This document shows positions 33,851 through 64,000 of a DNA stretch of 64,000 nucleotides, piece after piece (within the stretch, counting starts at the first letter, position 1; each line of letters opens with the position of its first letter). Location: contig OZ025880.1 in the NCBI GenBank assembly GCA_964019415.1, positions 7,524,491 through 7,588,490 of the forward strand, read 5' to 3'. Source of the DNA: Ianthella basta. Its lineage: Eukaryota > Porifera > Demospongiae > Verongiida > Ianthellidae. The notes below the pieces were generated by a model. That model had not been told where the DNA came from, made no database searches, and saw only the letters and a list, made by a program, of their open reading frames with translations. The translations under genes and the position numbers were made by a program.

Positions 33851-36800
33851 GGTTAGGGTATGTTTTGATGTATTAATACATTTTTTGTGAATTAAACAGT
33901 TTTGAATTTTGCCCGTCCTTAATTTCATATAAATTTCTGATAAAATATTGAATAAGAAATATAATACAGAATAAAAAACTATTGCTTTATTTAAACAATT
34001 TTGAATTGAAATAGAAATAGTTATTGAAGACGCATTTGGTGTAAACCACTTTTTAATGTGAAAATCTTAAATTAGTAGTGTAAATTCAAACATTTTAGGC
34101 CTTGCAAATATATTTAGTGCATAGTACATTTTGGTGCATAAACGTTTGGCTTAAAAAATATTTATTTTTATAAAAAGCTTTAGATGTGCTATAGCTTTTT
34201 TGGTGATTTTGAAAAGGTTTGGTGTCTGAAAAATGTTACTTGCAAAAATTGATATATGAAATGAAAATTTCACTGTAGAAAAGGCTTGATGCAACAGAAT
34301 ATTTTGATAAACTCAAAACATATTTGGTGTAAAAATTGTTTGCAGCATTGGCAGTGTGTGGTCATGTGCACTTCAAAATTAAAGTACAGGGTATATACAG
34401 TTCTAAGGCTTAAGAATACAAGGGAGATGACATGACAGGTGCTAGAGAACTGGCTGTGTTCATATATGTGCATGCTTGTGTATGTACATGTATACAATAC
34501 TTTTTAAAGATTAAAAATTTGAAAATAGAAAAGCACGTTTATAGATACAAGATCATAAAGAAGTAAAGAAATTGGAAAACATTTTTGATCTTAAATTAGT
34601 AGATTTTTGATCTTAAATTAGTAGTGTAAATTCAAACATTTTAGGCCTTGCAAATATATTTAGTGCATAATACATTTTGGTGCATAAACGTTTGGCTTAA
34701 AAAATATTTATTTTTATAAAAAGCTTTAGATGTGCTATAGCTTTTTTGGTGATTTTGAAAAGGTTTGGTGTCTGAAAAATGTTACTTGCAAAAAATTGAT
34801 ATATGAAATGAAAATTTCACTGTAGAAAAGGCATATAAACTATTGGACATGTAAAAAATTTTCAGATACATTTAGAGGTAGAACATGTTTGTAGATGCAC
34901 ATGCACAAACTAAAAATTTGGATAATAAATTTGGCAAGACTAAATATTCTTAAAGATGCAAAAATTACAGATAAAAGAACATGTTTGAAAACATAAAAAT
35001 TGAAAAACTAAAAATTTAAAAACTTTTAAAAATACAAAAAATGGAGATAAAAACATTTCCAGCATAAAAAATGTACAAGTAATGCAATTTAGAGAAAGGA
35101 AAAATTGTAAATACACAATAGAGATACTCAAACATTTTGGAAATACAAAAAACTGGATCTACAAAAAATTAGAGATAAGAAGTTTTTAGAGACAAAAATT
35201 AGAAGTAGAAGAACATGTTTAAAAATGCAAAAAATAAAAAAGTAAAAACTAAAATGGTCTGTAAATACAAAAGAACACATTAAAGAAGCAAAATTTAGAG
35301 ACAGAAAACATGTTTAAAGATATAATAAATTTGGAAAAGAAAATAATTAACGAAAATGTTTTTAAAAAAATAGAATGAATTTAGGAGACCAAAAGCATAT
35401 TTGGAATATGTCTCTAATTTTGCATGTTAATTTTTTAAGTCTAATTTTTATGTTTGAGTAATCTTTTTGGCATTTTCAATTTTGTCTTCCTAGTCAACTT
35501 TTAAATTTTTGATATGCCAGAATTGTTTTAAGGCAAAACTTTTTGCATGCCCAAAAAGTTCTAATTTTATTTTATTAGTTTCTTATATATGAATCAAATT
35601 ATTAATTTTGTCATAATGTGTTAAAATCATGATACATTATTGGAATAAATAATTGATCCAATGATCATAATTAGAATGATGGCAAAATATATTAATTAAT
35701 GAACAAGTGTTTGAATGAATGTTTTTTAAATATTTTATATCTCCAAACATATTCTTCTACCTTAAATTTGTATCTTTGAAAACTTCCAGCATGTCATTTC
35801 TTTGTATGTCCAAAAATGTTTTGCATTTCTAAAATATATATGTATCTCTTATTTGTAGTTAAAACATTTCTTACACCTAATTTTTTGTATCTTCAGAACT
35901 TTTTGAAATTTTCTTACAGATACAAAATTTTGAGGTAAAATAAATTGCTTAACTTTACAAATTTTGAAAACTAAGAACTTAAATGATAAAATTTTAGGAA
36001 TACAAAAAGTATTTTAAGACGCACAAAATTTAAAGATAGAAGAACATGTATGAAGATATAAAATATTAAAAAAACAAAAATGTAAAATTAAATTTTTTTT
36101 GCATTCAAAAAAATTTGGTTTGAAAATGTAAAAATTAACTAAAGAAGTAATTGAAGAATACCAAAAATGATATGCAAACAATATGGAAATACAAAAATTA
36201 GACCTACAAAGAATTGGACATGCAAAATTAGACAATATGTTTTTACTGATACAAAGATGTAGAGGCAGAAGAACATGTTTGTAAATACATTATTTCGGAA
36301 ACTATAAATTTAAAAAGCAAAATTTATGAAATACAGAAAATAAATATGCAAAAATTAGATATAGAAAAACATGTTTGGAGATATAAAATATTTAAATAAA
36401 TAAAAATTTGAAATTCAAAATTTTGGGTCTAATATGGGTATCATTGAATAGCCCTTCAAAAATGACCTCTAGGGAATGTAAGTGTGGTAGGCGGAGTTAC
36501 GCTAGTTTTTGAGATAAAGCGATTTAAAAATGTTCGAAGGAGGATGCTGTCAGAATATGTCATCAGATTTGCTAAAGGACAAAGGTCTATTATAGGTAAT
36601 TTGGCATTTTGCCATTAGTAACCTTAAGGTAAGGGTTAGGGCCATCGTTAGTGGCCCATTTTGGGCCACCGTTTTGTCAAAATGGGCCACTCCTCTGTAA
36701 TTTTGGGCCACTGGGCGGATTTCCGGGCCACCCTAGACAATTTTGGGTCACTTTGGCCCATTTCAAAATGTGCCACTTTTGAGATTCTGGGCCACCAAAA

Positions 36801-37619
36801 TGTGCCACTTTCTATTTTTTGGGCCACCTTTCATTCCACTTTTGGGCCACTCTTCCTGGCGAAATGGGTCACCACTGCGGATATTCCGGGCCTCTGAGGT
36901 CCGTGGGCTCTGGGCCACATTTTGGTTATGGTGCTTTTGATACTTTTGCTCTTAACAGGCTGCCAAATTTGCCCCTGTCCCTTTTTTGGTAGCTAGGACT
37001 GCTTTGTTGCTTTGGGTTTTGTTTTGCAGTGAGCGGCCACGCACCTTTGTGCAGTTCACCGTGGGACTCTTGGGGATTTTGCTGAATGTGGTTTTGTCCA
37101 TGCCTTACCATTACTTGTAGAAGTGAGTCCTCTTTAGTGAACTTGACGTGTACATTTGCTCTTTTTCCCATTATTCCAGGCGGTATCCAAGTAGGGAACC
37201 TTGGCCGCAACTTTGTGCCGCATGCCTAAGCACACAATGCACATATTAGGGTTAGGGCTAGGATGGAACAATGATGACCCAAACCAAAATGCTATAGAGT
37301 AGTCTATCACAATATCTGTTGTAAACGCAGCATCAATATATACACTCCTGTAATTGCATGTATTTCCGAGAATCTTCATTTTTTTAGTGTTTCAGTAGTC
37401 CAGAAGCGAACTTTTCTAGCAAATTTTAGAATTCTATGTCAAACATGTAAAATTTATTTCCCAGAATTGAAAAAAGATTGGGCCCAAATAGGCCAAAGTG
37501 GCCCAGTGGCCCATTTTTTCCTGAAAGCAGTAGAAAAATTTTTTTTGTGGAATGAATACCTACTACCTTCCTAGTTACTATTTCTGTGAGTGAACAAAAT
37601 CCCTAGTTCAAGAAAAAAA

Positions 37620-38290
37620 GAATGGGCCACTTTGGGATTGGCCCAAAAGGTGGCCCATTTTTGGAAACCCTGCAATTCTATCCAAAATGGTAAATCTGCA
37701 TCAGACATGTTGTTAGGAATCCCCTGGGGTAAAAAAGAAAACAGGCCAGTTTGGCCTAAAAGCAATGGGCCAAAGTGGCCCATTTTCCTTTTTTACCCTA
37801 AGGGTCTCCCAACAACATGTCTGATGCAGATTTACAATTTGGGGTTAAATTGCAGGGTTTCCAAAAATGGGCCACCCCTTTTGGGCCAAAGTGGCCCATT
37901 TTCCTTTTTTACCCCAAGGGCCTCCCAACATCATGTCTGATGCAGAATTACCATTTGGGGTTAAATTGCTGGGTTTCCAAAAATGGGCCACCCTTTTGGG
38001 CCAAAGTGGCCCATTTTCTTTTTTTACCCCAAGGGTCTCCCAACAACATGTCTGATGCAGATTTACCATTTGGGGTAAAATTGCAGGGTTTCCAAAAATG
38101 GGCCACCCTTTTGGGCTAAAGTGGCCCATTTTCCTTTTTTACCCCAAGGGTCTCCCAACAACATGTCTGATGCAGATTTACCATTTGGGGTAAAATTGCA
38201 GGGTTTCCAAAAATGGGCCACCCTTTTGGGCCACTTTGACCCAAAAATGGCCCATTTTTTAAAAACCCCGATTTCTACCCAAAACGGTAA
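37620..38290. repeat. 115-bp repeat, left arm
   Basis: Five units of about 115 bp with CATGTCTGATGCAGATTTAC, TGGCCCATTTTCC and GGGTTTCCAAAAATGGGCCA. The first unit is inverted relative to the others. Confidence 0.92.
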
Positions 38291-40049
38291 AAATGCATCA
38301 GATGTGATATTGGGACAACCCTGGAGCAAAAATAAAAAATGGGCCACTGTGGCCCAAAAAGAGGCAAAATTCTTTAATAATAACCCAGGACTTGTCAAAA
38401 CACTTGCAAAGCATCAAGGAACCAGTCTGGATGCGTTTGGTAAAAGAAAAAATGGGCTACTTTTGGACAAAATTTAACCCCAAAATTTTAAATCTGTCTG
38501 AAAATTGTAAAAGTGTATTCAAATGGCACTTCTGAACACTTTTTGAATGGTGGCCTATTTTTGAGAAAATCTTGCCCCACAAAAAAAATACTGCGCGGAA
38601 TTGCAATTTTTTTAAAGGGACATCAACTTACCTTGACGAAGCAATTCCCAAAAGATGGGGATCCCTAGTCCAAAGTGGACAAAATGGGCCGTTGCGGCCC
38701 AAAATTCCACCAGCGAGTGGCCCAAAATTAGAGACAAAAATTAAAAGTAGAAATTGAATGTTTGAAAATGCAAAACAGAAAAAATCTAAGAAATAAAATG
38801 TTTTAGAAATACAAAAAGAACATTAAATAAGCAAATTTAGGGACAGTAAAACATATTTAAAGATATAATAAATTTGGAAAAGGAAAAAATTAACAAAAAT
38901 GTTTTTGAGAATATAATGAATTTAGAAGACAAAAACATATTTGAATATCAAAATGTTCTAAAGATACAAAAAATTTAGGCGTAGGAAATGTTTTAAATAC
39001 AAATAAGAGATACATATATGTTAGAAATACAAAAAATTTTAGACATACAAAAATGGACATGCTAGAAGTTTTCAAAGATACAGAATTAAGGTAGAAGAAT
39101 ATGTTTGGAGATATAAAATATATAAGAAACATTCATTCAAACACCAGTTCATTAATTGATATTTTCTGCCATCATTTTAATTATGATCATTGGATCAATT
39201 ATTTATCCCAATGTATCATTATTTAACACTTTATGGCAAAATTAAAAATTTTTGGGCATACAAAAATGTTTACCTTAAAATAATTTTAGCATATCAAAAA
39301 TTTAAAAGTTGACTGAGTTAGCATTGCATTCTATATAAGTTGATGGCGAGAGTACATACCTTAAATAAATATTCACAAGTGTGTTGTTGAGAATTTTTTA
39401 CAATAACAGAAGTGAACATTACATCATGTTGATCAATATAGGTATATACTGGCACACGCATCTGCGTGTGCATCATGCAAGGAAAACAGTCAATAATATG
39501 AGAAGTCATAGACATTGTCATTGTTGGTTCTCATGCTCGTCCCCATCACGGCAGCTGTGTTCCCCCTTTGCACGGCTACAGCAACTCTCTGTTGCAGGTA
39601 GAAATGTGACTGGGGCAGAACATGTTGACTAAAAAGAAAAAATTGAAAATGCCAAAAAGCATACTTGAACATGGAAATACATAAAAATTGGACCTAAAAA
39701 TTGACATGCAAAAATTAGACATTTTTTACAGATGCAAAATTTTGAAATAAAATAAATTGTGACCTTATTTTAACTTAATCCATGAGAAGAACCAAACCTC
39801 ATATTAGGCCACTTCCGGTAATTTTGGGCCACCTAGCAAAAAATGCATCATTTTTGAGCCATTTTTTTTATTTTGAGGCCATCTGACAAAATGTGGCCTC
39901 ATTTTAACCTCATTCATGTGATGAACTAGACCTCATTTTGGGCCACCACCTTCATTTTTGGGCCACTTAGCAAAATATAATCGCATTTTATCCTCATTCA
40001 TGTGAAGAACCAAATCTCATTTTAGCTCACTTTCTGCATTTTTAGGCTT

Positions 40050-41594
40050 CCTTTTTGATGCAAATAACTTCTTGTTTGCTGCAAACAACTTCCTGCTCGC
40101 TGTAAACAGCTTCCTGTTTTTTGCAAACGACTTCTTGTTTGCTACAAACGACTTCCTGTTAGCTGCAAACGACTTTCTGTATTGCTGCAAGCCACTTTCC
40201 TATTGCTGGAAATAACTTCTTGTTTGCTGCAAACGAATTTCTGTATTGCTGCAAACCACTTTCTTGTTGATGCAAATAACTTCTTGTTTGCTGCAAACGA
40301 ATTCTTGTATTGCTGCAAGCCACTTTCTTTTTGATGCAATTAACTCCTTCTTTGCTGCAAAAGACTTCCTGTTTGCGGCAAACGACTTCCTGTTTGCTGC
40401 AAATAACTTTCTGTTGGCTGCAAACGACTTCCTGTTTGCTGCAAACGACTTCCTGTTTGCTGCAAACGACTTCCTGTTTGCTGCAAACGACTTTCTGTTT
40501 GCTGCAAACGACTTCCTGTATTGCTGCAACCGACTTTCTTTTTGCTTAAAACAACTTCTTGTTTGTTGTAAAGGACTTCCTGTTGGCTGCAAATAACTTT
40601 CTGTTGGCTGCAAACGACTTCCTGTTTGCTGCAAATAACTTTCTGTTGGCTGCAAACGACTTTCTGTTTGCTGCAAACGACTTCCTGTTTGCTGCAAACG
40701 ACTTCCTGTTTGCTGCAAACGACTTCCTGTTTGCTGCAAACGACTTCCTGTTTTCAGCAAACAACTTTCAGTTTGTAGCAAATGACTTTCTGTTTGCTGC
40801 AAACGACTTCCTGTTTGCTGCAAACAACTTCCTGTTGGCTGCAAAATAACTTTCTGTTGGCTGCAAACGACTTCCCGTTGGCTGCAAAAAACTTTGTTTG
40901 CTGCAGACGACTTCCTGTATTGCTGCAACTGACTTTCTTTTTGCTTAAAACAACTTCTTGTTTGTTGTAAAGGACTCACTGTTGGATGCGAACGATTTTC
41001 TGTATTGCTGCAAATCACTTTCTTTTTGCTGCAAATAAATTCTTGTTTGCTGCAAAAGACTTTCTGTTTGCTGCAAACGACTTCCTGTTGGCTGTTAACG
41101 ACTACCTGTAATGCTGCAAGCCACTTTCTGTCTAACTGCTAATAAATTTTAGTTTGCTGTAAACGACTTTCTGTTTGCTGCAAACAACTTTCCGTTGGCT
41201 GCAAACTACTTCCTGTCGGCTGCAAATGATTTCCTGTAATGCTTCAAGCTACATTCTTTTTACTGCTAATAAATACTTGTTTGCTGTAAACGACATTCTG
41301 TTTGCTGCAAACGACTTCCTGTTGGCTGCAAACGACTTCCTGTAATGCTACAAACCACTTTCTTTCTGATGCAAATAACATGTTTGCTGCAAACGACTTC
41401 TTGTTTGCTGCAAACGATTTTCTGTTGGCTGCAAACGACTTCCTGTAATGCTACAAAACACTTTCCTTTTGATGCAAATAACATGTTTGCTGCAAACGAC
41501 TTCTTGTTTGCTGCAAACAATTTTCTGTTGACTGCAAACGACTTTCTGTTGGCTGCAAGCGACTTTCCCTATGGTTGCAAATGGCTTTCTTTGG
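40050..41594. repeat. 21-bp satellite of the GTTTGCTGCAAACGACTTCC type, left arm
   Basis: About 70 units of 21 bp. Each contains the 13-bp palindrome GTTTGC-N-GCAAAC followed by GACTTCCT. The array is unrelated in sequence to the TCCAGTGCATCT satellite but has the same period. It is interrupted by the sequencing gap. Confidence 0.95.
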
Positions 41595-41794
41595 NNNNNN
41601 NNNNNNNNNNNNNNNNNNNNNNNNNNNNNNNNNNNNNNNNNNNNNNNNNNNNNNNNNNNNNNNNNNNNNNNNNNNNNNNNNNNNNNNNNNNNNNNNNNNN
41701 NNNNNNNNNNNNNNNNNNNNNNNNNNNNNNNNNNNNNNNNNNNNNNNNNNNNNNNNNNNNNNNNNNNNNNNNNNNNNNNNNNNNNNNNNNNNNN
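41595..41794. other. Assembly gap (200 N)
   Basis: Exactly 200 N, a size often used for gaps of unknown length. By symmetry with the right arm, the missing sequence should include more 21-bp satellite and possibly a TTAGGG array. Confidence 0.99.
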
Positions 41795-42915
41795 GGCAAA
41801 ATCAGCAACTTTGTCGACATCCTGCACATCGACGGTAAATTGTGAAACGTCGTCACCGCTCAGAGAGATTGCTAGCAATGATCTCTCGGCACTTGCAGAA
41901 ATTCAAGACAATACGCAGCTTAATGCTGCTTCTGCCCACCTAACCCATATAAATTAATACTTGGAAAATGCTGAGCTGGCTGAAAGAAGGCGAAGTTTGA
42001 GCGACTGCAGTACAGCGCGACTCGATTCTATCTCAACAACGACGACGAATATAACATCTACCAGCATCTGAGATGTCATCACCACCAAGGAACGACTCAA
42101 TTCTATAGGCTCAGCGTGCGACGATCCCGCAAACATGGTCCACACGCGAAGCTTCAATCCAGTCCAATTTGGTCGAGCATGACTTGCAGACTACTAGAAA
42201 CGCATTGGACGTATAGCTCGACGATCAGCATGTAACAGTAAAGAAAAATAGAGCTAAAGGTCTCCAAGGGGGTGGAGTCCTAGCAGCAATCAGGCCACAG
42301 ATGAAGCTTAGTATCACCCAACACGCACGCACGCCGATCGCAGACTCACCGTGACTCCCTCGAAGCTTGATAGCGTCCCTAGTTGCTCGCAGGGTGGGCT
42401 TCAGCGAGCAAACCGACGAGCTCACCCTGGCCTAGGAGATGAGACGGCCATCTTCTTGATCAAATTCCAACTTCCAAACCAATGTTAAAATGGCGCATAC
42501 TTACATACATACAATACATACGTGCATACATACATATATATGGGTATGCGTGTAGGAGATGTCACATAGGCATCACACACTTGAGCGAGGTATAGCTATT
42601 GTGTGTGAATGTATGTGTACAGTAGGGCCGGTTGTCCTGACTGAATGGTTGAAATCAGCTATTGGTAACTGATAGTCAAGCTAGTGATGTCGTTCTGTTG
42701 AGAGCTTTAGCCATTCTTCCTAGTTCCCATTGTCACTGCTTGAACTAGACTTGTAGCTGCCATAAAGAGTCGCTAGCTCGATTATCGATTACTCATACCG
42801 ATTACAACCATCCAGTTAGGGACTGCTAATGCAAAGGCACTGTATCCGTGAGTATAAGTGTGGTATGTTGCACACGTGAGTGAGTGAGTCAGCGAGTCAG
42901 TCTGTGAGCGAGTGT
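41795..42915. other. Unannotated sequence after the gap
   Basis: About 1.1 kb of GC-moderate single-copy-looking sequence. There are short frames only (up to 67 codons) and an (ATAC)n stretch at 42500-42545. Nothing recognised. Confidence 0.5.
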
Positions 42916-43063
<148 letters not shown>

Positions 43064-43190
43064 GGTGTTCAACTGCATGGGGTACGCTGCACTGACGAGG
43101 CCCAAAGAGGCTGAAACTCTGCTACTGTAGTAGCAGAGTCTGCAGTTCCCTATTATAGGGTATGCATTATGCATTACTGTGCACATGTCC

Positions 43191-43221
<31 letters not shown>

Positions 43222-43224
<3 letters not shown>

Positions 43225-44316
43225 TAGTATTGTAGCTCTCTCCGACATTATCTGCAGGTCTGCAGCTGACTGGAACCGTTTTATTGTCCTACGTGATGGA
43301 GAAGCAAAGAGAGTCATAGAACACATTTAATTGAGACTTGCACCATTCATTGCATGCACACAACCGCACTGCACCTTCTTGCAATTGGTGTAACCCTTTA
43401 AATCATTTAATTATTTGTTGCACTAATGGTCTATATTAACCTGAGGTATTTGCATGAGCTGCAGGAGTCCCTGTTGATTAGTGCAATTGATCTAATATAA
43501 CAGCTTGAGTAATTAATGTAGCTTGCATATCAATAAATATCAATATCAATAAATATTTAAGTGCACCGTACCCATAGGTACTAGGACACCACGTGGTCCA
43601 ATGCAGCACTGCACAAATTAAAAAGGATAGGGATAATACTATATATTATTACCATATATTAAACTGAACACGGCATATTTGCTTGCACATGCACATTCAC
43701 ATTCAACAGCACATGACTCTGGTGGACAGGAGAGTGTTCACCAGTAATATTTAATGTTATGCACATACGGCTTGCTGCATACCTTTGGAAAAGCGCTGCT
43801 CGGTCGAATAGTATTTTGTTGCAGCTCCCGGATTGCGCAATCGCATAAATGGCTGCAGCCCCCGTCTTCTGCAAAATCGGCGTCGCCTGCCCGGTAAACG
43901 CAGAAAGGCTTCTGCACGAAATTAGCTTCATTCGATAGCCATAGGAGATTAGTCTTGGTGTGTGATGTTTAGGCGCTTGGACTGCTTCATCGCCGTGCAG
44001 CACAAGGCTGTCTGCCTTGTCCCTGTACATAAGGTATAGCGGGGTCAAGGGTCACATGGGTGCTGCACCCATGTCGCGGCAGTCTTAAAAAAGAGTCGGG
44101 CGTGGGTATGCGTGTGTGTTTTCCAGGCGTGGGTATGCGTGTGTGTTTTCCAGTGTTCTGTGCGCGTCTGGATGGTTCAACAGCAGATCTGTCGTCGGTG
44201 ATGTCGGTTTTCGCTCCCATTCTGTCCTGGACCCGTGTCCAGGCTGAAAATCGGGCGTTAGGGCTCTAGCTCGCCGACAGCGGTTTGAACAGGGCTTCGG
44301 GGTTAGATTAGCAGTC
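43222..44316. other. Unannotated sequence
   Basis: AT-rich to about 43780, then GC-richer. A short frame beginning ATGGCTGCAGCCCCCGTC near 43850 is too short to call. A 28-bp direct repeat (GGCGTGGGTATGCGTGTGTG and the following TTTTCCAG) is present twice at 44098-44153. Confidence 0.45.
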
Positions 44317-44550
44317 GTGTGTGATAGTTGTCTCTTAGTTTTTGTGTGTTTTGACGGTTTTGATGACGATTTGACGGCGCCCATACGACGAGGTCATCGT
44401 TACGAGGCGTTCGTTCGCATTACACTCCAGGGGGAGGTCATCTGGCGGAGTGGCCACACTCCTGGCACTTGCCTCTACCCTTCCGACATGCTGGTGCTCC
44501 CTTGTCTGCAAAGGCTCGTGCTGGCAGCAATGCGAGGCCACCTTACATAG
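44317..44550 (+). CDS. Small hypothetical ORF (77 aa)
   Basis: Open frame in a GC-rich island, containing DLTAPIRRGHRYEAFVRITL and ending LAAMRGHLT. No family recognised. Non-repetitive composition makes it a possible exon, but no convincing splice sites, partner exons or poly(A) signal support it. Confidence 0.2.
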   Translation: MCDSCLLVFVCFDGFDDDLTAPIRRGHRYEAFVRITLQGEVIWRSGHTPGTCLYPSDMLVLPCLQRLVLAAMRGHLT

Positions 44551-44749
44551 CACATACGCAACCACACGCGCACTATCATAATAATAATTTTATCTTGCAT
44601 GCAATATGGCCGAAGGTGGTCATAAGGCAAGTGGAGAACATGCACATGCATGCAGTTGATACTTGATGGCCTTGGTATGCAGTCATGCATGCATTCACTC
44701 TTGCCCACACCTACCCACCCACCCACACATACATGCAAACAATGCTGTA

Positions 44750-44807
44750 ACTGCAGACGGCTTCAATAATGAAGCCGTTTCGCCCTTCTGGGGCTCATCA
44801 GTGCAGT
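44750..44807 (-). ncRNA. Hammerhead ribozyme, type I (copy 1)
   Basis: On the - strand: stem I ACTGCA, core CTGATGA, stem II GCCC/GGGC with loop CAGAA, core GAAA, stem III CGGCTTCA/TGAAGCCG with loop TTAT, cleavage triplet GTC, then TGCAGT closing stem I. All conserved core nucleotides are present. Its monomer differs from the others in the loop and flank (CAATAATG on the + strand). Confidence 0.9.
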
Positions 44808-44861
44808 GCTCAAGCCAATTCACAGTCACACGCATGCACAGTCACACGCACAAGCAAGATG

Positions 44862-45253
44862 AGGCAAGATGTGGCAAGATTAGGTAAGATGAGGCAAGAT
44901 ATAGCAAGATTAAGCAAGATGAGGCAAATGAGGCAAAATGAGTCAAGATATTGCAAGATGAGGAAAGAAATAGCAAGATGAGGCAAGATGAGGCAAGATA
45001 TAGCAAGATTAAGCAAGATGAGGCCAGATGAGGCAAGAAATAGCAAGATGAGTCAAGATATTGCAAGATGAGGCAAGAAATAGCAAGATGAGTCAAGATA
45101 TTGCAAGATGAGGCAAGAAATAGCAAGATGAGGCAAGATGAGGCAAGATATAGCAAAATAAAGCAAGATGAGGCAAGATATAGCAAGATGAGGCAAGATA
45201 TTGCAAAGATGAGGCAAGAAATAGCAAGATGAGGCAAGATGTGGCAAGATTAG
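44862..45253. repeat. 10-bp GCAAGATGAG satellite inside the ribozyme array
   Basis: About 39 decamers of GCAAGATGAG with GATATA, GAAATA and GATTAA variants. It is the reverse complement of the TCATCTTGCY satellite at 18-30.8 kb and sits between ribozyme monomers 1 and 2. The following monomer starts directly in stem III. Confidence 0.97.
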
Positions 45254-45302
45254 GGCTTCAATAGTGAAGCCGTTTCGCCCTTCTGGGGCTCATCAGTGCA
45301 GT
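45254..45302 (-). ncRNA. Hammerhead ribozyme, truncated (copy 2)
   Basis: Has CTGATGA, stem II, GAAA and stem III, but the GTC cleavage triplet and 3' strand of stem I are replaced by the end of the 10-bp satellite. It should not cleave itself. Confidence 0.85.
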
Positions 45303-45394
45303 GCTTGCTCAAGCAAATTCACAGTCACACGCACTCGCCACTGGAGCACCCGCCTCCACCTACCCACCCACACCTACACGCACACAATGCAAAA

Positions 45395-45452
45395 ACTGCA
45401 GACGGCTTCAATAGTGAAGCCGTTTCGCCCTTCTGGGGCTCATCAGTGCAGT
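45395..45452 (-). ncRNA. Hammerhead ribozyme, type I (copy 3)
   Basis: Complete three-stem ribozyme with CTGATGA, GAAA and GTC. Predicted cleavage is between positions 45401 and 45400 of the + strand numbering. Stem I ACTGCA/TGCAGT, stem III loop CTAT. Confidence 0.93.
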
Positions 45453-45544
45453 GCTTGCTCAAGCAAATTCACAGTCACACGCACTCGCCGCTGGAGCACC
45501 CGCCCACACCTACCCACCCACACCTACACGCACACAATGCAATA

Positions 45545-45602
45545 ACTGCAGACGGCTTCAATAGTGAAGCCGTTTCGCCCTTCTGGGGCTCATCAGTGCA
45601 GT
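45545..45602 (-). ncRNA. Hammerhead ribozyme, type I (copy 4)
   Basis: Identical over the 58-nt ribozyme to copies 3 and 5, 150 bp downstream of copy 3. Confidence 0.93.
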
Positions 45603-45694
45603 GCTTGCTCAAGCAAATTCACAGTCACACGCACTCGCCGCTGGAGCACCCGCCCACACCTACCCACCCACACATACACGCACACAATGCAATA

Positions 45695-45752
45695 ACTGCA
45701 GACGGCTTCAATAGTGAAGCCGTTTCGCCCTTCTGGGGCTCATCAGTGCAGT
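45695..45752 (-). ncRNA. Hammerhead ribozyme, type I (copy 5)
   Basis: Identical over the 58-nt ribozyme to copies 3 and 4. It is the last copy of the array, 475 bp upstream of the tyrosine recombinase ATG. Confidence 0.93.
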
Positions 45753-46226
45753 GCTTGCTCAAGCAAATTCATATAAATAAATAAATAAATAAGGAGCACC
45801 ATAATAATTTGGCTATAGGAGAAACACACAGGAACGCTTAACCACTATTTGTATTGTCATTTGTAAGCTGGAATCAGTGTGATTCGAATGAAAAACAACT
45901 AAATTCCTAACCCACCACCGACCCACCACAGGCATGCATGGCAAAGGGCATGCACGTACAAGGGGCCATCTTGTGGGAGGGACAACGCAATGACATCGCC
46001 CAACCTGGGGGACATTAGGCCAGGAATTAATCAGTTTGTTATTTGCTCAGTGGAGCTGTTTGTTGTGATTTGTGGTCGCAACAGTGGAGCTGTTTGTTGT
46101 GTTGTTGTGGTCGCAACCAGGAATGCAGATGGGACCATTTTGTGGGCGGGGTCTAGGCTAGCCCACAAAAGGAGGCGCCCATACAGCCAGTGCATTAGTC
46201 CAAAGAGAAAGAAGCGCAAGTTGACA

Positions 46227-49200
46227 ATGGCGGGCGAAGAGGACCTCTTTTGGAAACTTCTGTGGAAATCGGCTTTTGCCCTGGCGGCACAGGGCTCACA
46301 AAGAGGTATGAGCAGTCCCTACAACACCACAATGGCCAGCTAACCTTAATCCCTAACAGTTTCAATCACTGATACCTTCAATACCAAGCCACCTATGTAC
46401 GTACGTACGTACCTACCTAATATACCTACCTACCTACCTACCTACCTACCTACCTACCTACCTACCTACCTACCTACCTACCTACCAAAGTAGTAATCAC
46501 TGATACCTTCAGTACCAAGCCATCTACCTACCTACCTACCTACCTACCAAAGTAGTAATCACTGATACCTTCAGTACCAAGCCATCTACCTACCTACCTA
46601 CCTATACCTACCTTCCCACAGGCAGACAAGGAGGTGCATCCATCCATGAGCACCCCACAGAGACTCCCCCACAACTCCACACCCCTGAGACCCTTCCCCA
46701 CCCCACTGAGGCTCACCAACAGCCCTACCCCGCTGAGACTGGCACAGAGCTCCAGCCTACCGAGACTCGCCCCCTCTCCACCGAGACGGGGACAGAGCAC
46801 CCGCCCACTGAAGTGCCCACGGAGCACCAACCCATTGATACTGGGACCGAGCACCCACCCACAGAGACGGCCACGGAGCACCAACCCACTGAGATGGCCA
46901 CCGAGAACCCACCCACCAAGGCGTCCACAGAGCACTCGCCCACTGAGACCGGGACAGAACACCCACCCACTGAGACCGGGACAGAACACCCACCCACTGA
47001 GACCGGGACAGAACACCCACCCACTGAGACCGGGACAGAACACCCACCCACTGAGACCGGGACAGAACACCCACCCACGGAGACCGGGACAGAACACCCA
47101 CCCACTGAGACGGCCACAACACACCAATCCACCCCAACAAGGTCTCACACACACCAACCCATCCATCTTAAGAGAAACACTGCATGCCCACCTCCCTCAC
47201 ACTGTTTACATTGCAACAGAAATTTCATAGCCATACATACATACATACAAGTGAATTGGCGGCATAAATGCATTACATATGCGGCTTCTCTCTTACGCAG
47301 CAGTGACAGTGATGGTGGTAGCGACTACCAGCCACCAGCCAAACGGCGGCATCAAGGGACTGCCTCCAATAAAGGAGGACGCACGAGGAGCTACCTCGAT
47401 ATCCATGCTCCAGAGCATGAGGCACTACGCGAGAAAATGGACAAAATGAGGTGCTTTTTCACGGACCCGGTCAGCCTACAGAGGGGCCGGGACCCCATTG
47501 CATCAATCACATGGGAGAGAGTACAGCTGCACCATCTACGTAAGTCAGTGTACCTGCCACTTGTTACCCACCCATCCCCACGCACACAGACTATGCCAGA
47601 GGCTCCACACTACGTACGTAGATCACACATCATGTCTGTCTACACACTGTACAATTGAGACCCCCTCACCCGCTAATCCCTTTCCCTCGCACACACTTAG
47701 TCTTCTTTGCATACGTAAAAGAAGAACAGCAGACCAGCCCCGCCCTTGAGTGCCTCTTGGACGCTGAAATGATTGAGGGGTTCGTGTTAACCCTGAAAGA
47801 AAAGCCTCTCCAGGGCATCACCATTTCACGATACCTCGAAAACCTGAGGTATGGCCTACGCTACCTCTACATAAAGGATGGAAAGGAGTACAGCGAGCAG
47901 GAGCACTACATAAACGTGGGCAGACTCGGGGAGCAGTGCCGTAGGCAGGTCGTCTCCTCTACAGCACGCCGAAGCTGGCAAGCATTGCAAGCACAGCAGA
48001 AGTGGGCCGAATGGTGAGTCTGAGGGGGATTTGACAACTTTCAGTGGTGGGCTAAGTGTCAAAGCTATACCAAAGAGTTGCATTGGAGCAACTCAAAGCC
48101 TTACATATACCTACTCCACGGCGTCCATGCCACCCTCCCCTACCCTCCTCCCTTCTCTATGCAGGGATGACATTCTGGCCGCAGTCAAAGAGCAGAAGGG
48201 TCTCTTTGAAGGAGCAACCCGCCCCCGCATAAAGGCCCAGGAGTCTCAGAAACTACTGGCCATGCTCTTCTACGCCGCCCTCCCACCTGGCCGTGCAAAG
48301 GAGTTCCAAACGTTACACGTGGCCATCCACGACAAACTACCTATGCCAGTGGTGGACCAAGCGAGGCCAAACTGCCTCTACATCACTACGGATGGCAGGC
48401 AAGCCTACCTTCTATTGGCCGATTACAAGACTCACAAGAGTTACGGGGACCACTTCCTCCCCCTGGACGATGACAGTCAGCTATTGAGTCACCTTGTGAT
48501 ACACCTAAGTCACCACAGGGAGGTCCTGCTGGGAGCAGGACAACAGACCACTGCCCTCTTCTTAGTGAGTACAAGACATACATATAACTATATATATGGT
48601 ACACCTATGCATGTATACACCACCACCGGAATCACCGCTATCACCATCACAGTGCAGTTGTCGTTCTCTAACTCAATTCTTTCTTTGGTACAGAACGATA
48701 GGGGAGCACCATACAGTGCCAGTTCGTGGACTGCCTACATTGAGGGAATCTTTGAACGCCACATTGCGAAAAAGATTGGCCCCACTTTGCTGAGATCCAT
48801 TTTCGTTACCCACTGTGAGAAGTCAAACCTTTCAGAAGCAGAAAAGGAGTCTATGGCCACAGCCATGCGGCACAGCAGGCGAGCGGTGAGCAAGCACTGA
48901 CATGTGCATTCAAACCCTACTCACTCCATTGCAACCAGCATGCACAAACATATGTCCACCCATGAACCTATGCCTACCAACTTTAACGTGAATCCCTATC
49001 CACTCGTGAATATGCAGCAAAAAGAGCATTACGACAGACGCACACAGGTGGACAGGGAAAAGAAGGGCAGGAAGTACACCGGAGGCCTACTTGAGAAGGC
49101 CCTGTCCTCGGCAACCACCACCACTGAGGACTCGGCCGGGCCATCCACCAGAGAGCCACCAACTGACAGCGACAGTGACAGTGACAACGAAGGACCTGAT

Positions 49201-49485
49201 CTAGGAGACATTGTCGCAATCGTGCTGCCAGACTCCACCGCAGTGAAGCCAAAAGTTGACGTGGGCAAAGTCATGCGGATTGACAAAGCCAAGACGACGC
49301 TCAGGTATTTGCCACTCAACCACGTTGGAGGTAACAGATACCACTGCAAACTCGGGGATATACGGAAAGCCACTGTGGATCAGTGGGTATATCCCGTAGA
49401 TTTCCAGTACAAAGCCACAGAGAACACCTATCAACTCCTATCCACCCCAACAGAAATTCACCTACACAAACACCCACTTACATGA
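46227..49485 (+). CDS. Tyrosine recombinase, Crypton/virus-like, with Pro/Thr-rich N-terminal repeats
   Basis: Predicted site-specific DNA recombinase, likely of a mobile element. Exons: 46227-46305, 46622-47539, 47701-48013, 48165-48564, 48694-48885, 49018-49485; about 789 aa. An optional intron at 47142-47300 keeps frame. Order: MAGEEDLFWKLLWKSAFALA start; Thr/Glu/Pro region with 9-residue ETGTEHPPT repeats; KGGRTRSYLDIH; an N-terminal SAM-like core-binding domain in exon 3; then the catalytic domain: box I Arg in LPPGRAKEF (codon 48292), Lys in DYKTHKSYG, Arg in LLRSIFVTH, His in MRHSRRA, and Tyr in QKEHYDRR (codon 49030). A C-terminal extension of about 150 aa has GDIVAIVLPDS..VGKVMRI, suggestive of a small SH3-like barrel. 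All expected catalytic residues are present and no stops are seen. Intron 1 holds a (CTAC)n microsatellite. The exact element class is inferred. Confidence 0.82.
46394..46612. repeat. (CTAC)n microsatellite in recombinase intron 1
   Basis: Tracts of CTAC at 46408-46486, 46525-46548 and 46586-46615, separated by two copies of AAGTAGTAATCACTGATACC and AAGCCATCTACC-type spacers. Confidence 0.95.
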
Positions 49486-50223
49486 CTCTGTTTAAAATTT
49501 GCTATCACCCACTATCAACGACTGTACCTGTTGCATTAGCAATTTGTAATCATGACGGTAAGCATGTGTAGCGATCCATCCACGACACCTAACTTCACGA
49601 TGGCACCCGATTATGCGCAATAGAACGACGGCATAGAATAGAGACTAGGTAGCAAATTTGGGACCTAAATTGTCACTGAGGAGCAGCTGGTCTAACGCCA
49701 CACAACACCTAACTACTACACATGTACATAGTCACTACGTGGTGCGTGCTGGGGGAGACTCACCTATGACCGACGCTAAGGCTGTGGCTCTTTGGCTGCA
49801 TGTGCACAAGACAACACATATGTAAATGATTTCCGTACAACCAAACCTATCGGGCAAAACGTACTGTAGGCACAAGAGGACTTGATGGTGGGCCATAAGT
49901 GCATTCCTACGCAGATATGCTATGTTTCATAGGGCTAAAGCGCGTCCATGGCGCCTGATTCTGACTATACCCCAACTGCACCTTAGCAGAAAGGTCTACG
50001 GCGAGTCTACAGCGCCGTTTCTAGGGACAGGAGGCCTCCATGGTCATTTCTAGAGAGCTAAGGCTAGCATAGAATGCTTGCTGTGCATACAATACGTGGA
50101 ATTGCAGCATAAAAGGACTGTGGCGAGTCTACAGCGACGTTTCAGGGCACATGAGGCCTCAATGTCTACTACAAGCGAGCTCAGACAAGTCTACAACGCA
50201 CGCCTTCCGCGCTGAAGATAGAA
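49486..50223. other. Recombinase 3' flank
   Basis: About 740 bp without a gene. A direct repeat GGCGAGTCTACAGCG occurs at 49999 and 50122, each followed by a CGTTT..AGG stretch. It runs into the telomere-type array. Confidence 0.5.
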
Positions 50224-50345
50224 CCCTAACCCTAACCCTAACCCTAACCCTAACCCTAACCCTAACCCTAACCCTAACCCTAACCCTAACCCTAACCCTA
50301 ACCCTAACCCTAACCCTAACCCTAACCCTAACCCTAACCCTAACC

Positions 50346-50386
<41 letters not shown>

Positions 50387-50402
50387 CCCTAACCCTAACC
50401 CC
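50224..50402. repeat. Interstitial telomere-type (CCCTAA)n array
   Basis: About 30 tandem CCCTAA hexamers on the + strand, with a single ACCCTAAACC variant at 50363. It passes directly into the GTTTGCTGCAAGCAGGATGT satellite. Confidence 0.98.
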
Positions 50403-52550
50403 TGTTTGCTGCAAACAGGATGTCGTTTGCTGCAAGCAGGATGTCGTTTGCTGCAAGCAGGATGTCGTTTGCTGCAAGCAGGATGTCGTTTGCTGCAAGC
50501 AGGATGTCGTTTGCTGCAAGCAGGATGTCGTTTGCTGCAAGCAGGATGTTGTTTGCTGCAAGCAGGATGTCGTTTGCTGCAAGCAGGAAGTCGTTTGCAG
50601 CAAACAGTAATTGTTGGCATAAACAGTAAGTTGTTGGCATAGAGCAGGAAGACTTTTGCTGCAAACAAGAAGTCGTCTGCAGCAAAGGTTTTTGCAAAAA
50701 ATACAGGAAGTTATTTGCAGCGAACAAGAAGTTGTTTGCAACAAACAGAATGGCGTTTACAGCAAACAGAAAGATGCTTGCATCTAACAATGAGTCAGTT
50801 GCAACAAAACAGAATGTAGTTTGCAGCATTTCTAGAAGTTGTTTGCAGCCAATAGTGAGTCCTTTGCAACAGACCAAAAGTTGTTTGCAGCAATACAGGA
50901 AGCTGTATGGAGCAAATAGGAAAGCGTTGACAGCAGAAGGAAGTCATTTGCTGCCAAAGAAAGCCATTTGCAACCATAGGGGAAGTCGCTTGCAGCCAAC
51001 AGAAAGTCGTTTGCAGCCAACAGAAAATTGTTTGCAGCAAACAAGAAGTCGTTTGCAGCAAACATGTTATTTGCATCAAAAGGAAAGTGTTTTGTAGCAT
51101 TACAGGAAGTTGTATGCAGCCAACAGAAAATTGTTTGCAGCAAACAAGAAGTCGTTTGCAGCAAACATGTTATTTGCCTCTGAAAGAAAGTGGTTTGTAG
51201 CATTACAGGAAGTCGTTTGCAGCCAATAGGAAGTCGTTTGCAGCAAACAGAATGTCGTTTACAGCAAACAAGTATTTATTAGCAGTAAAAAGAATGTAGC
51301 TTGAAGCATTACAGGAAATCATTTGCAGCCGACAGGAAGTAGTTTGCAGCCAACGGAAAGTTGTTTGCAGCAAACAGAAAGTCGTTTACAGCAAACTAAA
51401 ATTTATTAGCAGTAAAAAGAAAGTGGCTTGCAGCATTACAGGTAGTCGTTAACAGCCAACAGGAAGTCGTTTGCGGCAAACAGAAAGTCTTTTGCAGCAA
51501 ACAAGAATTCATTTGCAGCAGAAAGAAAGTGGTTTGCAGCAATACAGAAAATTGTTCGCATCCAACAGTGAGTCCTTTACAACAAACAAGAAGTTGTTTT
51601 AAGCAAAAAGAAAGTCAGTTGCAGCAATACAGGAAGTCGTCTGCAGCAAACAAAGTTTTTTGCAGCCAACGGGAAGTCGTTTGCAGCCAACAGAAAGTTA
51701 TTTTGCAGCCAACAGGAAGTTGTTTGCAGCAAACAGGAAGTTGTTTGCAGCAAACAGGAAGTCGTTTGCAGCAAACAGAAAGTCATTTGCTACAAACTGA
51801 AAGTTGTTTGCTGAAAACAGGAAGTCGTTTTCAGCAAACAGGAAGTCGTTTGCAGCCAACAGAAAGTTATTTGCAGCAAACAGGAAGTCGTTTGCAGCCA
51901 ACAGAAAGTTATTTGCAGCCAACAGGAAGTTTTTTACAACAAACAAGAAGTTGTTTTAAGCAAAAAGAAAGTCGGTTGCAGCAATACAGGAAGTCGTCTG
52001 CCGCAAACAAAGTTTTTTGCAGCCAACAGGAAGTCGTTTGCAGCCAACAGAAAGTCGTTTGCAGCAAACAGGAAGTCGTTTGCAGCAAACAGGAAGTCGT
52101 TTGCAGCAAACAGGAAGTCGTTTGCAGCAAACAGGAAGTCGTTTGCAGCAAATAGGAAGTTGTTTGCAGCCAACAGAAAGTTATTTGCAGCAAACAGGAA
52201 GTCGTTTGCCGCAAACAGGAAGTCTTTTGCAGCAAAGAAGGAGTTAATTGCATCAAAAAGAAAGTGGCTTGCAGCAATAGAAGAATTCGTTTGCAGCAAA
52301 CAAGAAGTTATTTGCATCAACAAGAAAGTGGTTTGCAGCAATACAGGAATTCGTTTGCAGCAAACAAGAAGTTATTTCCAGCAATAGGAAAGTGGCTTGC
52401 AGCAATACAGAAAGTCGTTTGCAGCTAACAGGAAGTCGTTTGTAGCAAACAAGAAGTCGTTTGCAAAAAACAGGAAGCTGTTTACAGCGAGCAGGAAGTT
52501 GTTTGCAGCAAACAAGAAGTTATTTGCATCAAAAAGGAAGCCTAAAAATG
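50403..52550. repeat. 21-bp GTTTGCNGCAAACAGGAAGT satellite, right arm
   Basis: About 100 units. The first nine (50405-50600) are a homogeneous subtype, GTTTGCTGCAAGCAGGATGT, next to the telomeric array. Later units are mostly GTTTGCAGCAAACAGGAAGT. From 50954 onward it pairs with the left arm. Confidence 0.95.
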
Positions 52551-54369
52551 CAGAAAGTGAGCTAAAATGAGATTTGGTTCTTCACATGAATGAGGATAAA
52601 ATGCGATTATATTTTGCTAAGTGGCCCAAAAATGAAGGTGGTGGCCCAAAATGAGGTCTAGTTCATCACATGGATGAGGTTAAAATGAGGCCACATTTTG
52701 TCAGATGGCCTCAAAATGAAAAAATGGCTCAAAAATGATGCATTTTTTGCTAGGTGGCCCAAAATTACCGGAAGTGGCCTAATATGAGGTTTCGTTCTTC
52801 ACATGGATTAAGTTAAAATAAGGTCACAATTTATTTTATTTCAAAATTTTGTATCTGTAAAAAAATGTCTAATTTTTGCATGTCAATTTTTAGGTCCAAT
52901 TTTTATGTATTTCCATGTTCGAGTATGCTTTTTGGCATTTTCAATTTTTTCTTTTTAGTCAACATGTTCTGCACCAGTCACATTTCTACCTGCAACAGAG
53001 AGTTGCTGTAGCCGTGCAAAGGGGGAACACAGCTGCCGTGATGGGGACGAGCATGAGAACCAACAATGACAATGTCTATGACTTCTCATATTATTGACTG
53101 TTTTCCTTGCATGATGCACACGCAGATGCGTGTGCCAGTATATACCTATATTGATCAACATGATGTAATATTCACTTCTGTTATTGTAAAAAATTCTCAA
53201 CAACACACTTGTGAATATTTATTTAAGGTATGTACTCTCGCCATCAACTTATATAGAATGCAATGCTAACTCAGTCAACTTTTAAATTTTTGATATGCCA
53301 AAATTATTTTAAGGTAAACATTTTTGTATGCCCAAAAAGTTTTAATTTTTATTTTTTAGTTTCTTATGTATAAATCAAATTTTTAATTTTGCCATGAAGT
53401 GTTAAATAATGATACATTGGGATAAATAATTGATCCAATGATCATAATTAGAATGATGGCAGAAAATATCAATTAATGAACTGGTGTTTGAATGAATGTT
53501 TCTTATATATTTTATATCTCCAAACATATTCTTCTACCTTAATTCTGTATCTTTGAAAACTTCTAGCATGTCCATTTTTGTATGTCTAAAATTTTTTGTA
53601 TTTCTAAAATATATGTATCTCTTATTTGTATTTAAAACATTTCCTACGCCTAAATTTTTTGTATCTTTAGAACATTTTGATATTCAAATATGTTTTTGTC
53701 TTCTAAATTCATTATATTCTCAAAAACATTTTTGTTAATTTTTTTGCTTTTCCAAATTTATTATATCTTTAAATATGTTTTACTGTCCCTAAATTTGCTT
53801 ATTTAATGTTCTTTTTGTATTTATAAAACATTTTATTTCTTAGATTTTTTCTGTTTTGCATTTTCAAACATTCAATTTCTACTTTTAATTTTTGTCTCTA
53901 ATTTTGGGCCACTCGCTGGTGAAATTTTGGGCCGCAACGGCCCATTTTGTCCACTTTGGACTAGGGATCCCCATCTTTTGGGAATTGCTTCGTCAAGGTA
54001 AGTTGATGTCCCTTTAAAAAAATTGCAATTCCGCGCAGTATTTTTCTTGTGGGGCAAGATTTTCTCAAAAATGGGCCACCATTCAAAAAGTGTTCAGAAG
54101 TGCCATTTGAATACACTTTTACAATTTTCAGACAGATTTAAAATTTGGGGTTAAATTTTGTCCAAAAGTAGCCCATTTTTTCTTTTACCAAACGCATCCA
54201 GACTGGTTCCTTGATGCTTTGCAAGTGTTTTGACAAGTCCTGGGTTATTATTAAAGAATTTCGCCTCTTTTTGGGCCACAGTGGCCCATTTTTTATTTTT
54301 GCTCCAGGGTTGTCCCAATATCACATCTGATGCATTTTTACCATTTTGGGTAGAAATTGGGGTTTTTAA

Positions 54370-55010
54370 AAAATGGGCCATTTTTGGGCCAAAGTGGCCC
54401 AAAAGGATGGCCCATTTTTGGAAACCCTGCAATTTTACCCCAAATGGTAAATCTGCATCAGACATGTTGTTGGGAGACCCTTGGGGTAAAAAAGGAAAAT
54501 GGGCCACTTTAGCCCAAAAGGGTGGTCCATTTTTGGAAACCCTGCAATTTTACCCCAAATGGTAAATCTGCATCAGACATGTTATTGGGAGACCCTTGGG
54601 GTAAAAAAGAAAATGGGCCACTTTGGCCCAAAAGGGTGGCCCATTTTTGGAAACCCAGCAATTTAACCCCAAATGGTAATTCTGCATCAGACATGATGTT
54701 GGGAGGCCCTTGGGGTAAAAAAGGAAAATGGGCCACTTTGGCCCAAAAGGGTGGCCCATTTTTGGAAACCCTGCAATTTAACCCCGAATGGTAAATCTGC
54801 ATCAGACATGTTGTTGGGAGACCCTTGGGGTAAAAAAGAAAATGGGCCACTTTGGCCCATTGCTTTTAGGCCAAACTGGCCCGTTTTCTTTTTTACCCCA
54901 GGGGATTCCTAACAACATGTCTGATGCAGATTTACCATTTTGGATAAAATTGCAGGGTTTCCAAAAATGGGCCACCTTTTGGGCCAATCCCAAAGTGGCC
55001 CATTCTTTCC
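54370..55010. repeat. 115-bp repeat, right arm
   Basis: Units with CTGCATCAGACATG at 54453, 54568, 54682 and 54797 (spacing 114-115 bp), then one inverted unit (CATGTCTGATGCAG at 54916), forming a local palindrome around AAAATGGGCCACTTTGGCCC. Confidence 0.93.
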
Positions 55011-55983
55011 TTCTTGAACTAGGGATTTTTTTCACTCACAGAAATAGTAACTAAGAAGGTAGTAGGTATTCATTCCACAAAAAAAATTTTTCTACTGCTT
55101 TCAGGAAAAAATGAGCCACTGGGCCACTTTGGCCTATTTTGGCCCAATTTTTTTTCAATTCTGGGAAATAAATTTTACATGTTTGACATAGAATTCTAAA
55201 ATTTGCTAGAAAAGTTCGCTTCTGGACTACTGAAACACTAAAACAATGAAGATTCTCGGAAATACATGCAATTACAGGAGTGTATATATTGATGCTGCGT
55301 TTACAACAGATATTGTGATAGACTACTCTATAGCATTTTGGTTTGGGTCATCATTGTTCCATCCTAGCCCTAACCCCAATATGTGCATTGTGTGCTTAGG
55401 CATGCAGCACAAAGTTGCGGCCAAGGTTCCCTACTTGGATACCGCCTGGAATAATGGGAAAAAGAGCAAATGTACACGTCAAGTTCACTAAAGAGGACTC
55501 ACTTCTACAAGTAATGGTAAGGCATGGACAAAACCACATTCAGCAAAATCCCCAAGAGTCCCACGGTGAACTGCACAAAGGTGCGTGGCCGCTCACTGCA
55601 AAACAAAACCCAAAGCAACAAAGCAGTCCTAGCTACCGAAAAAGGGACAGGGGCAAATTTGGCAGCCCGTTAAGAGCAAAAGTATCAAAAGCACCATAAC
55701 CAAAATGTGGCCCAGAGCCCACGGACCTCAGAGGCCCGGAATATCCGCAGTGGTGACCCATTTCGCCAGGAAGAGTGGCCCAAAAGTGGAATGAAAGGTG
55801 GCCCAAAAAATAGAAAGTGGCACATTTTGGTGGCCCAGAATCTCAAAAGTGGCACATTTTGAAATGAGCCAAAGTGACCCAAAATTGTCTAGGGTGGTCC
55901 GGAAATCCGCCCAGTGGCCCAAAATTACAGCGGAGTGGCCCATTTTGACAAAACGGTGGCCCAAAATGGGCCACTAACGATGG

Positions 55984-63900: not shown

Positions 63901-64000
63901 ATTTGGCAAGATATGACAAGGTAAGATCTGGCAAGATATGACAGGTAAGATCTGGTAAGATACGACAAAGTTGGATCTGGCAAGAAATGACAAAGGAAGA
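57904..64000. repeat. 35-bp satellite built from GCAAGAT words
   Basis: About 170 tandem units running off the window. The consensus is seven pentamers: GCAAG ATTAG GCAAG, then ATATG ACAAG GTAAG, then ATTAG, with TTTGG, TTAAG and ACGAG variants. It shares GGCAAGAT with the 10-bp satellite but in the orientation of 44.9-45.2 kb. A segment around 61.0-61.97 kb is repeated about 973 bp downstream. Frames such as the 222-codon one on the - strand are artefacts of the period. Confidence 0.97.

Follow-up and report, generated by a model that had tools for sequence, protein, structure and literature searches.

Introduction

The common view of hammerhead ribozymes (HHRs) in animal genomes is that they belong to retrozymes or to Penelope-like retroelements (PMC7229834, PMC7761336). 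Animal retrozymes without long terminal repeats (non-LTR retrozymes) and hammerhead satellites, described from newt, schistosome, coral, mussel and axolotl, carry type I HHRs in short tandem repeats of 150–450 bp with a GC content below 50% (PMC7229834), and Terminons, Penelope-like elements of bdelloid rotifers and others, bring HHRs to chromosome ends in head-to-tail copies with telomeric tracts (PMC6431247). Here we describe, in a 64,000-nucleotide stretch of the genome of the sponge Ianthella basta (contig OZ025880.1, positions 7,524,491 to 7,588,490; hereafter the window), a tandem array of type I HHRs that faces a further HHR on the other strand within an 8.9-kb subtelomeric unit, and we find facing HHRs again in the terminal inverted repeats of other elements of this genome. 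The 150-bp period of the array lies within the retrozyme range; unlike animal retrozymes, the array has so far been seen only in the unit or a derivative of it, has a GC content of 57% and a long stem III, lacks a circular-RNA-like fold, and faces an HHR on the opposite strand. Unlike Terminons, the unit shows no reverse transcriptase in the frames scanned, its HHRs are canonical and its gene is tentatively tyrosine-recombinase-like. In this genome, some HHRs lie in the inverted repeats of integrase-core elements and others in a telomere-abutting unit with no reverse transcriptase detected.

Yeast Y′ elements are telomere-associated tandem units that carry a gene, are separated by short telomere tracts and are highly homogenised; the unit described here is likewise tandem, telomere-associated, gene-bearing and highly homogenised, with telomere tracts between copies. 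Y′ elements encode a helicase and, unlike the window unit, are not known to contain HHRs. The hepatitis delta virus (HDV)-like ribozyme of the R2 retrotransposon self-cleaves at the element border and frees the element RNA from read-through RNA, the same border-release mechanism that we propose for the window HHRs, although R2 is a retrotransposon with another ribozyme class at a single border. In the open literature, searched by titles and abstract openings with subscription papers outside the search, we found no report of hammerheads in the inverted repeats of DNA transposons, nor in telomere-associated repeats beyond Terminons (PMC8490949, PMC6431247), and no paper joining Cryptons or Porifera with hammerheads.

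Results

A tandem hammerhead array and the hammerhead that faces it

An initial annotation of this DNA had reported tandem type I HHRs on the minus strand, and core positions, a structure-aware finder and Tandem Repeats Finder all agree that they are real. Between 44750 and 45752 the minus strand holds four complete copies and a truncated one, as that annotation had counted, with CTGATGA...GAAA cores at 44778–44801, 45273–45296, 45423–45446, 45573–45596 and 45723–45746. The following features were obtained (CM, covariance model):

44750–44807, minus strand: complete type I HHR, copy 1; stems I/II/III of 6/4/9 bp; predicted cut between 44756 and 44755; CM 88.8 bits (training-set member)
45241–45318, minus strand: truncated HHR, copy 2; core kept; cleavage site and 3′ stem I strand missing where the satellite joins; CM 43.1 bits
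45395–45452, minus strand: complete HHR, copy 3; predicted cut between 45401 and 45400; finder, fold and CM (training-set member)
45545–45602, minus strand: complete HHR, copy 4; predicted cut between 45551 and 45550; finder, fold and CM (training-set member)
45695–45752, minus strand: complete HHR, copy 5; predicted cut between 45701 and 45700; finder and CM (training-set member)
45254–45771, minus strand: 150-bp tandem array; Tandem Repeats Finder, 3.5 copies, 98% matches
44854–45254, no strand: 10-bp satellite GCAAGATGAG between copy 1 and copies 2–5; tandem-repeat search
43086–43146, plus strand: complete HHR facing the array; stems 6/4/11; predicted cut between 43140 and 43141; finder, fold (z −3.0) and CM (57.6 bits)

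The finder accepts four of the array HHRs as complete, with stems of 6/4/9 bp, and the copy with its core at 45273 is the one without cleavage site. The exact 150-bp spacing claimed for all monomers holds for the last four cores; the core of copy 1 lies 495 bp from that of copy 2, behind ~400 bp of the satellite. Stem III, given earlier as 8 bp, measures 9 bp once the A-U pair adjacent to the core is counted. The four complete minus-strand copies and the plus-strand copy all display a CUGANGA/GAA(A) core, three stems, an open stem I and a NUH site (H17 being C).

The plus-strand HHR, absent from the initial annotation, faces the array across ~1.6 kb. It has the core CUGACGA, a G-U as first pair of stem II and a stem III of 11 bp; its predicted structure is a complete hammerhead in which helix I has a 3-nt/1-nt internal loop, a candidate for contact with loop II; the array copies have another loop there. 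A CM built from the HHRs of this genome, whose E-values are rough, scores it at 57.6 bits (E 1.1e-12), this copy being outside the training set.

The core alone is not significant, at least five CTGATGA/GAAA occurrences being reached in 7 of 100 shuffles; complete HHRs, by comparison, number five in the window (four minus, one plus) versus none in 200 simulated 64-kb sequences. Rfam returned nothing at the gathering threshold in the window. The best matches, Hammerhead_HH9 (RF02275; E 6.6e-5, 29.4 bits) and the RAGATH-1 hammerhead (RF03152; E 0.0039, 32.5 bits), share the core and the helix I layout with the window HHRs but stay below gathering thresholds of 52 and 56.3, respectively.

Predicted folding of the array

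Two of three isolated array segments fold as the full three-way junction and the third retains stems II and III, which makes cleavage of single copies, as proposed before, plausible in the folding model. When a tandem transcript is folded, each of its three copies keeps stems II and III, but the stem I strands partly pair between neighbours, which qualifies that proposal. When the 150-nt monomer is cut at a different point, the HHR is lost in the best fold (z 0.17). The array had also been suggested to yield circular RNAs of about 150 nt: two monomers of this length could indeed come off according to the predicted cuts, but the circles predicted for the two monomers do not exceed shuffled sequences in stability (z −0.44 and +0.27).

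The array belongs to an 8.9-kb telomere-associated unit

Copies elsewhere in the genome (209 Mb, 96 contigs), which the initial annotation had made a check of its proposal, abound: no fewer than 158 places match the 150-bp monomer, and 254 match its core at ≤2 mismatches versus none for a reversed control, truncated copies counted. The details of array clusters given below rest on 100 listed of these 254 core matches, among which there are 24 clusters. Array matches recur each 8.9 kb on several contigs, and comparison of contig C74 with itself and with the window delineates one unit (window 41795–50221) in head-to-tail copies, with a period near 8.93 kb on C74:

41795–50221, no strand: window copy of the ~8.9-kb subtelomeric unit; self/window comparison; left end cut by the gap
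50222–50401, no strand: telomere-type tract (AACCCT)30 at the right end of the unit; tandem-repeat search
41595–41794, no strand: assembly gap of 200 N that cuts the window unit on the left

At the C74 junction, short CCCTAA tracts separate the unit copies. Contig C2 opens with (CCCTAA)n at 6–755, a telomere of 750 bp that the unit directly adjoins. The unit thus abuts the telomere and has tandem copies joined by telomeric tracts, in the manner of Y′, with one chromosome end read to the telomere. A ribosomal spacer, suggested by the 8.9-kb period, was rejected, as seven fetched loci gave no Rfam match at gathering.

At least 19 contig ends, belonging to 15 contigs, have arrays nearby: both ends of C2, C7, C19 and C23 and one end of C3, C4, C5, C6, C8, C9, C11, C13, C14, C20 and C22; those on C3, C4 and C8 sit 0.2–0.3 Mb inside the contig end. 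In a tally that excludes small contigs, 12 (C2, C5–C9, C11, C14, C19, C20, C22 and C23) have array HHRs whose strand runs toward the closest contig end, and this end-pointing strand is the one that reads TTAGGG at the left end of C2.

Twenty-three of the 24 listed clusters lie within the unit or a diverged derivative, C8:8431363 being the one unchecked. Membership was established for 20 by the plus-strand partner, for C2:24221 by its flanks (L045) and for C2:15753267 by an adjoining gene copy; the remaining one, C2:7801822 (L029), is a diverged piece of the unit (85–93%) with a single HHR that has one mismatch in stem III. Confined in this way among the clusters listed, the array probably does not behave as a free retrozyme, and the notion of a free mobile circular-RNA element is further at odds with its GC content and with the circular folds reported above.

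The facing arrangement is equally recurrent. The plus-strand partner has 52 genome matches at ≤3 mismatches versus none for the control, about four of them diverged and chromosome-internal. It lies ≤2.6 kb from the array in 20 of the 24 clusters, facing it in all 20, and no partner was found at the other four listed (C2:24221, C2:7801822, C2:15753267 and C8:8431363). At 22 further array places a facing partner is present at 19 and none was found at three (C9; C19:3, which is the contig start; C19:6777290). The 741-bp piece between the facing HHRs has 40 full-length matches at 97–100% identity (best 40 of 149 candidates). The partner is doubled in two units, at C4:293315/293463 (148 bp apart) and C7:9541015/9541183 (168 bp).

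Facing hammerheads in transposon inverted repeats

A search pattern excluding the array family gave 165 matches versus 5 in the control, bringing the HHR cores genome-wide to ~470 (254 + 52 + 165, with at least one, on C5, counted twice). Among 100 listed of the 165, neighbours within 10 kb are facing in 13 cases, back-to-back in 3 and on the same strand in 7. Facing pairs, present in unrelated families, keep a constant distance in places, with 7238 bp found three times and ~5.98 kb twice.

Three element families have facing HHRs in terminal inverted repeats, two of them with an integrase-core domain. In the C6 element (L046), the inverted repeats span at least 753 bp at 98% identity, each with an HHR whose stem III is 11 bp, and the integrase core PF24764 is matched with E 6.7e-5 and 23.1 bits (cut-off 26). 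In the C1:15085256 family, the inverted repeats are 466 bp long (93%) and PF24764 gives E 8.8e-4 and 25.7 bits, or 30.2 with neighbours; the domain lies 1055–1056 bp inside the HHR on C1, C2 and C3, with both ends seen on C1 only, and four more copies of it lie beyond the HHR matches listed. The third is a C5 element with inverted repeats of at least 363 bp (99%). With HHRs in inverted repeats and a transposase-type domain, L046 and the C1:15085256 family have the make-up of inverted-repeat DNA transposons. Between the L040 and L041 ends, a 69-bp match over the HHR is the only one reported (matches ≤60 bp being filtered out), and between L051 and L052 there are only matches of 20 and 26 bp.

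L051 and L052 are two other subtelomeric HHR families, which face each other ~1.73 kb apart at C2:15726114/15727852, C4:243889/245621 and C7:9552334/9554067, and with 4.25-kb spacing at a C11 end; one of the two has a stem III loop of nearly 50 nt. Inside the C6 element, a frame at L046:3164–3826 is RING-finger-like, below cut-off (E 2.4e-4).

Diversity of hammerheads across the genome

A search with RF02275 found 11 other places, none above gathering (best 58 of 16760 candidates); nine are complete, L031 has an altered core and L039 is without the 3′ part. Among 18 further loci, 17 hold an HHR with stems of at least 6/4/5 bp and L060 does not, and the genome-built model recovers all 19 loci L046–L064 (20 matches, E ≤2.8e-4). 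Folded with their flanks, the dispersed HHRs L036 and L040 form the hammerhead. Four same-strand HHRs on C8 (L032–L035, at 5092780, 5175380, 5248233 and 5320449) lie 72–83 kb apart in surroundings that are 93–97% identical, perhaps a large tandem duplication.

In a first covariation alignment of 13 rows, 11 of them distinct, stems I and II were invariant. In stem III, the cells altered on both sides (10) were above all shuffles (5.1) and the covariation score was reached by 8 of 500 shuffles; pair types were fewer than in shuffles, with 494 of 500 reaching the observed value. Across 27 HHRs, the second pair of stem II is CG in 11, GC in 11, UG in 3 and AU in 2, and the third pair of stem III is AU in 20, UA in 4 and GC in 3. 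Note that these 27 were picked as complete and include near-identical members, so that the weight is on the variety of letters and not on pairing. The predicted HHR fold is retained between diverged families while the letters of its stems vary.

Discussion

A proposed border function for facing hammerheads

Facing pairs occur both in the unit and in transposon inverted repeats, which suggests that these HHRs trim RNA at element borders and are not merely parts of small circular-RNA parasites. Since a hammerhead is active only in transcripts of its own strand, a facing pair would cut RNA that arrives from either side shortly after it has passed the border. The explanation we favour, with moderate confidence, is that the array represents one half of such a border pair, the half directed to the telomere, which was amplified locally and is now fixed in the 8.9-kb telomere-associated unit. 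Transcripts entering the element from either side would cut themselves soon past the border: the array would cleave outward RNA toward the telomere (the TTAGGG strand, akin to telomeric repeat-containing RNA, TERRA), and the single plus-strand HHR would cleave inward RNA. Two 150-nt monomers (45700–45551 and 45550–45401) would be released from an array transcript, and their ligation could give circles as a side product. The single HHR of the diverged L029 suggests that the array may have arisen from one border HHR by local amplification. This origin, like transcription, cleavage and the border function, is read here from sequence, predicted structure and geometry.

A number of observations weigh against this reading. 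Inverted repeats produce facing geometry automatically, so that border function need not be implied. No terminal inverted repeat was found in the unit by self-comparison. On the contigs covered by the listed matches, an HHR lies within 8 kb at only 7 of 50 integrase-core loci, so that most of these would have no HHR or one outside the search pattern. The array HHR and the plus-strand HHR of the unit are unlike in sequence; the latter has its G-U pair right beside the core, and three of its C4 copies have an altered core, CTTACGA. One of the three dispersed HHRs folded, L037, is not a hammerhead in its best fold, and in the first alignment the stem III pairs altered on both sides numbered 4, a value reached by 202 of 500 shuffles. 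A second single-copy place, C7:9539317, has one HHR in sequence 99% identical to the unit with a long satellite where copies 2–5 would be, and it may have lost these copies, being satellite-bordered there. Units on C3 and part of those on C4 break the end-pointing rule, which C8, with its array equally far inside, obeys; the window unit, on C13, likewise has the contig end behind it. Its telomere-type tract is likewise reversed, which fits a mis-oriented block: the 22 kb right of the gap on C13 may have been placed in the wrong orientation.

Alternative explanations

The HHRs might have no present function, being relics of transposon ends that recombination has homogenised together with the subtelomeric unit. 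A 781-bp gene piece shows 100% identity, after rounding, in every copy scored (best 40 of 58), so that recent homogenisation alone would keep copies alike, and some HHRs are broken, as the truncated copy 2 and the CTTACGA core illustrate. Against this, the predicted fold is kept with altered letters between diverged families, where homogenisation is unlikely, and for the ends of L040/L041 and of L051/L052 only the short matches given above were reported. We consider this explanation unlikely, though not negligible. Somewhat more doubtful still is an animal non-LTR retrozyme, in which transcripts of the 150-bp repeat would cut themselves, be closed into circles by an RNA ligase and return to the genome through reverse transcription, the subtelomeric position of the repeat being due to chance. 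Tandem type I HHRs in repeats of 150–450 bp are the look of animal retrozymes (PMC7229834), and the three complete copies at 150-bp spacing would release two 150-nt monomers. What speaks against it is that, among 100 listed of the 254 places (target-site duplications not being searched for), 23 of 24 clusters lie in the unit or its derivative, with one unchecked, that a GC content of 57% exceeds the <50% of the same source, that the circular folds are no better than shuffles, and that the diverged unit copy holds a single HHR.

A telomeric retroelement of the Penelope/Terminon type, with HHRs in its terminal repeats, we regard as very improbable. Terminons bear HHRs, sit at telomeres and form head-to-tail arrays with telomeric stretches (PMC6431247), as the unit does, but the HHRs of Penelope-like elements and Terminons are described as minimal, without helix III or loop contacts (PMC7761336), whereas stem III here is 9–11 bp, and the unit frames scanned (leaving out those below 90 aa and mostly-N frames) contain no reverse transcriptase domain.

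The border reading may be carried further, to a proposal that we find possible but rather doubtful: facing canonical HHRs at both borders would be a regular feature of some DNA-transposon families of this lineage, selected for cutting read-through RNA at the element edge, and one pair would have been captured and amplified in a telomere-associated unit, where it would separate TERRA-like from subtelomeric RNA at many chromosome ends. If the HHRs cut in vivo, this genome would offer a system for studying the role of genomic hammerheads in the elements that host them, and for asking if a ribozyme can process telomere-directed transcripts.

The gene of the unit and neighbouring features

To the right of the array, on the plus strand, the unit carries a gene, and a palindrome lies to the left of the array:

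47302–49485, plus strand: intron-containing gene, tentatively a Crypton-like tyrosine recombinase; frames with intron-like gaps
~47302–47540, 47702–48013, 48165–48563, 48694–48886 and 49018–49485, plus strand: exon pieces of this gene, the 5′ end being provisional
44055–44073, no strand: palindrome CATGGGTGCTGCACCCATG, with a near-twin ~2.3 kb off in complete units

Thirteen homologous proteins, down to 36% identity, match the joined protein. By eye it displays R (ALPPGR), K (KTHKSYG), R (PTLLRS), H (MRHSRR) and Y (KEHYDRR), which we take to be the tyrosine-recombinase order of motifs. Its sole profile match is PF13102 (phage-integrase SAM-like), below cut-off both with one exon (E 0.019) and with the joined sequence (E 0.1); it has no NCBIfam match and no meaningful match in the Protein Data Bank (PDB), and the AlphaFold2 (AF2) model of the homologue P0006 is poor (predicted local distance difference test, pLDDT, 42.6). 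The assignment as a Crypton-like tyrosine recombinase is accordingly tentative. The 781-bp gene piece is 100% identical, after rounding, in the 40 copies scored. The scan of the unit for reverse transcriptase covered most frames of at least 90 aa. A DUF3622 match (Pfam, E 1.6e-5) on the array translation was set aside as a repeat effect, no single stretch passing.

Complete units contain the palindromes CATGGGTGCWGCACCCATG (window 44055–44073; L021 at 1394 and 3659) at a distance of ~2.3 kb from each other; their flanks are inverted, and they are possibly the ends of a nested element or recombination sites. Very long satellites of 10 bp (TCATCTTGCC), 21 bp and 35 bp occupy 15637–30766, 57937–63937 and 44854–45254; the 10-bp satellite unit that interrupts the HHR array is the same as in the long window arrays. 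The unit is flanked by a large inverted duplication (36642–41565 versus 50404–55983) with pieces up to 98–99% identical and inverted 21-bp satellites on both sides, and the 200-N gap at 41595–41794 lies at the left inner edge of this duplication.

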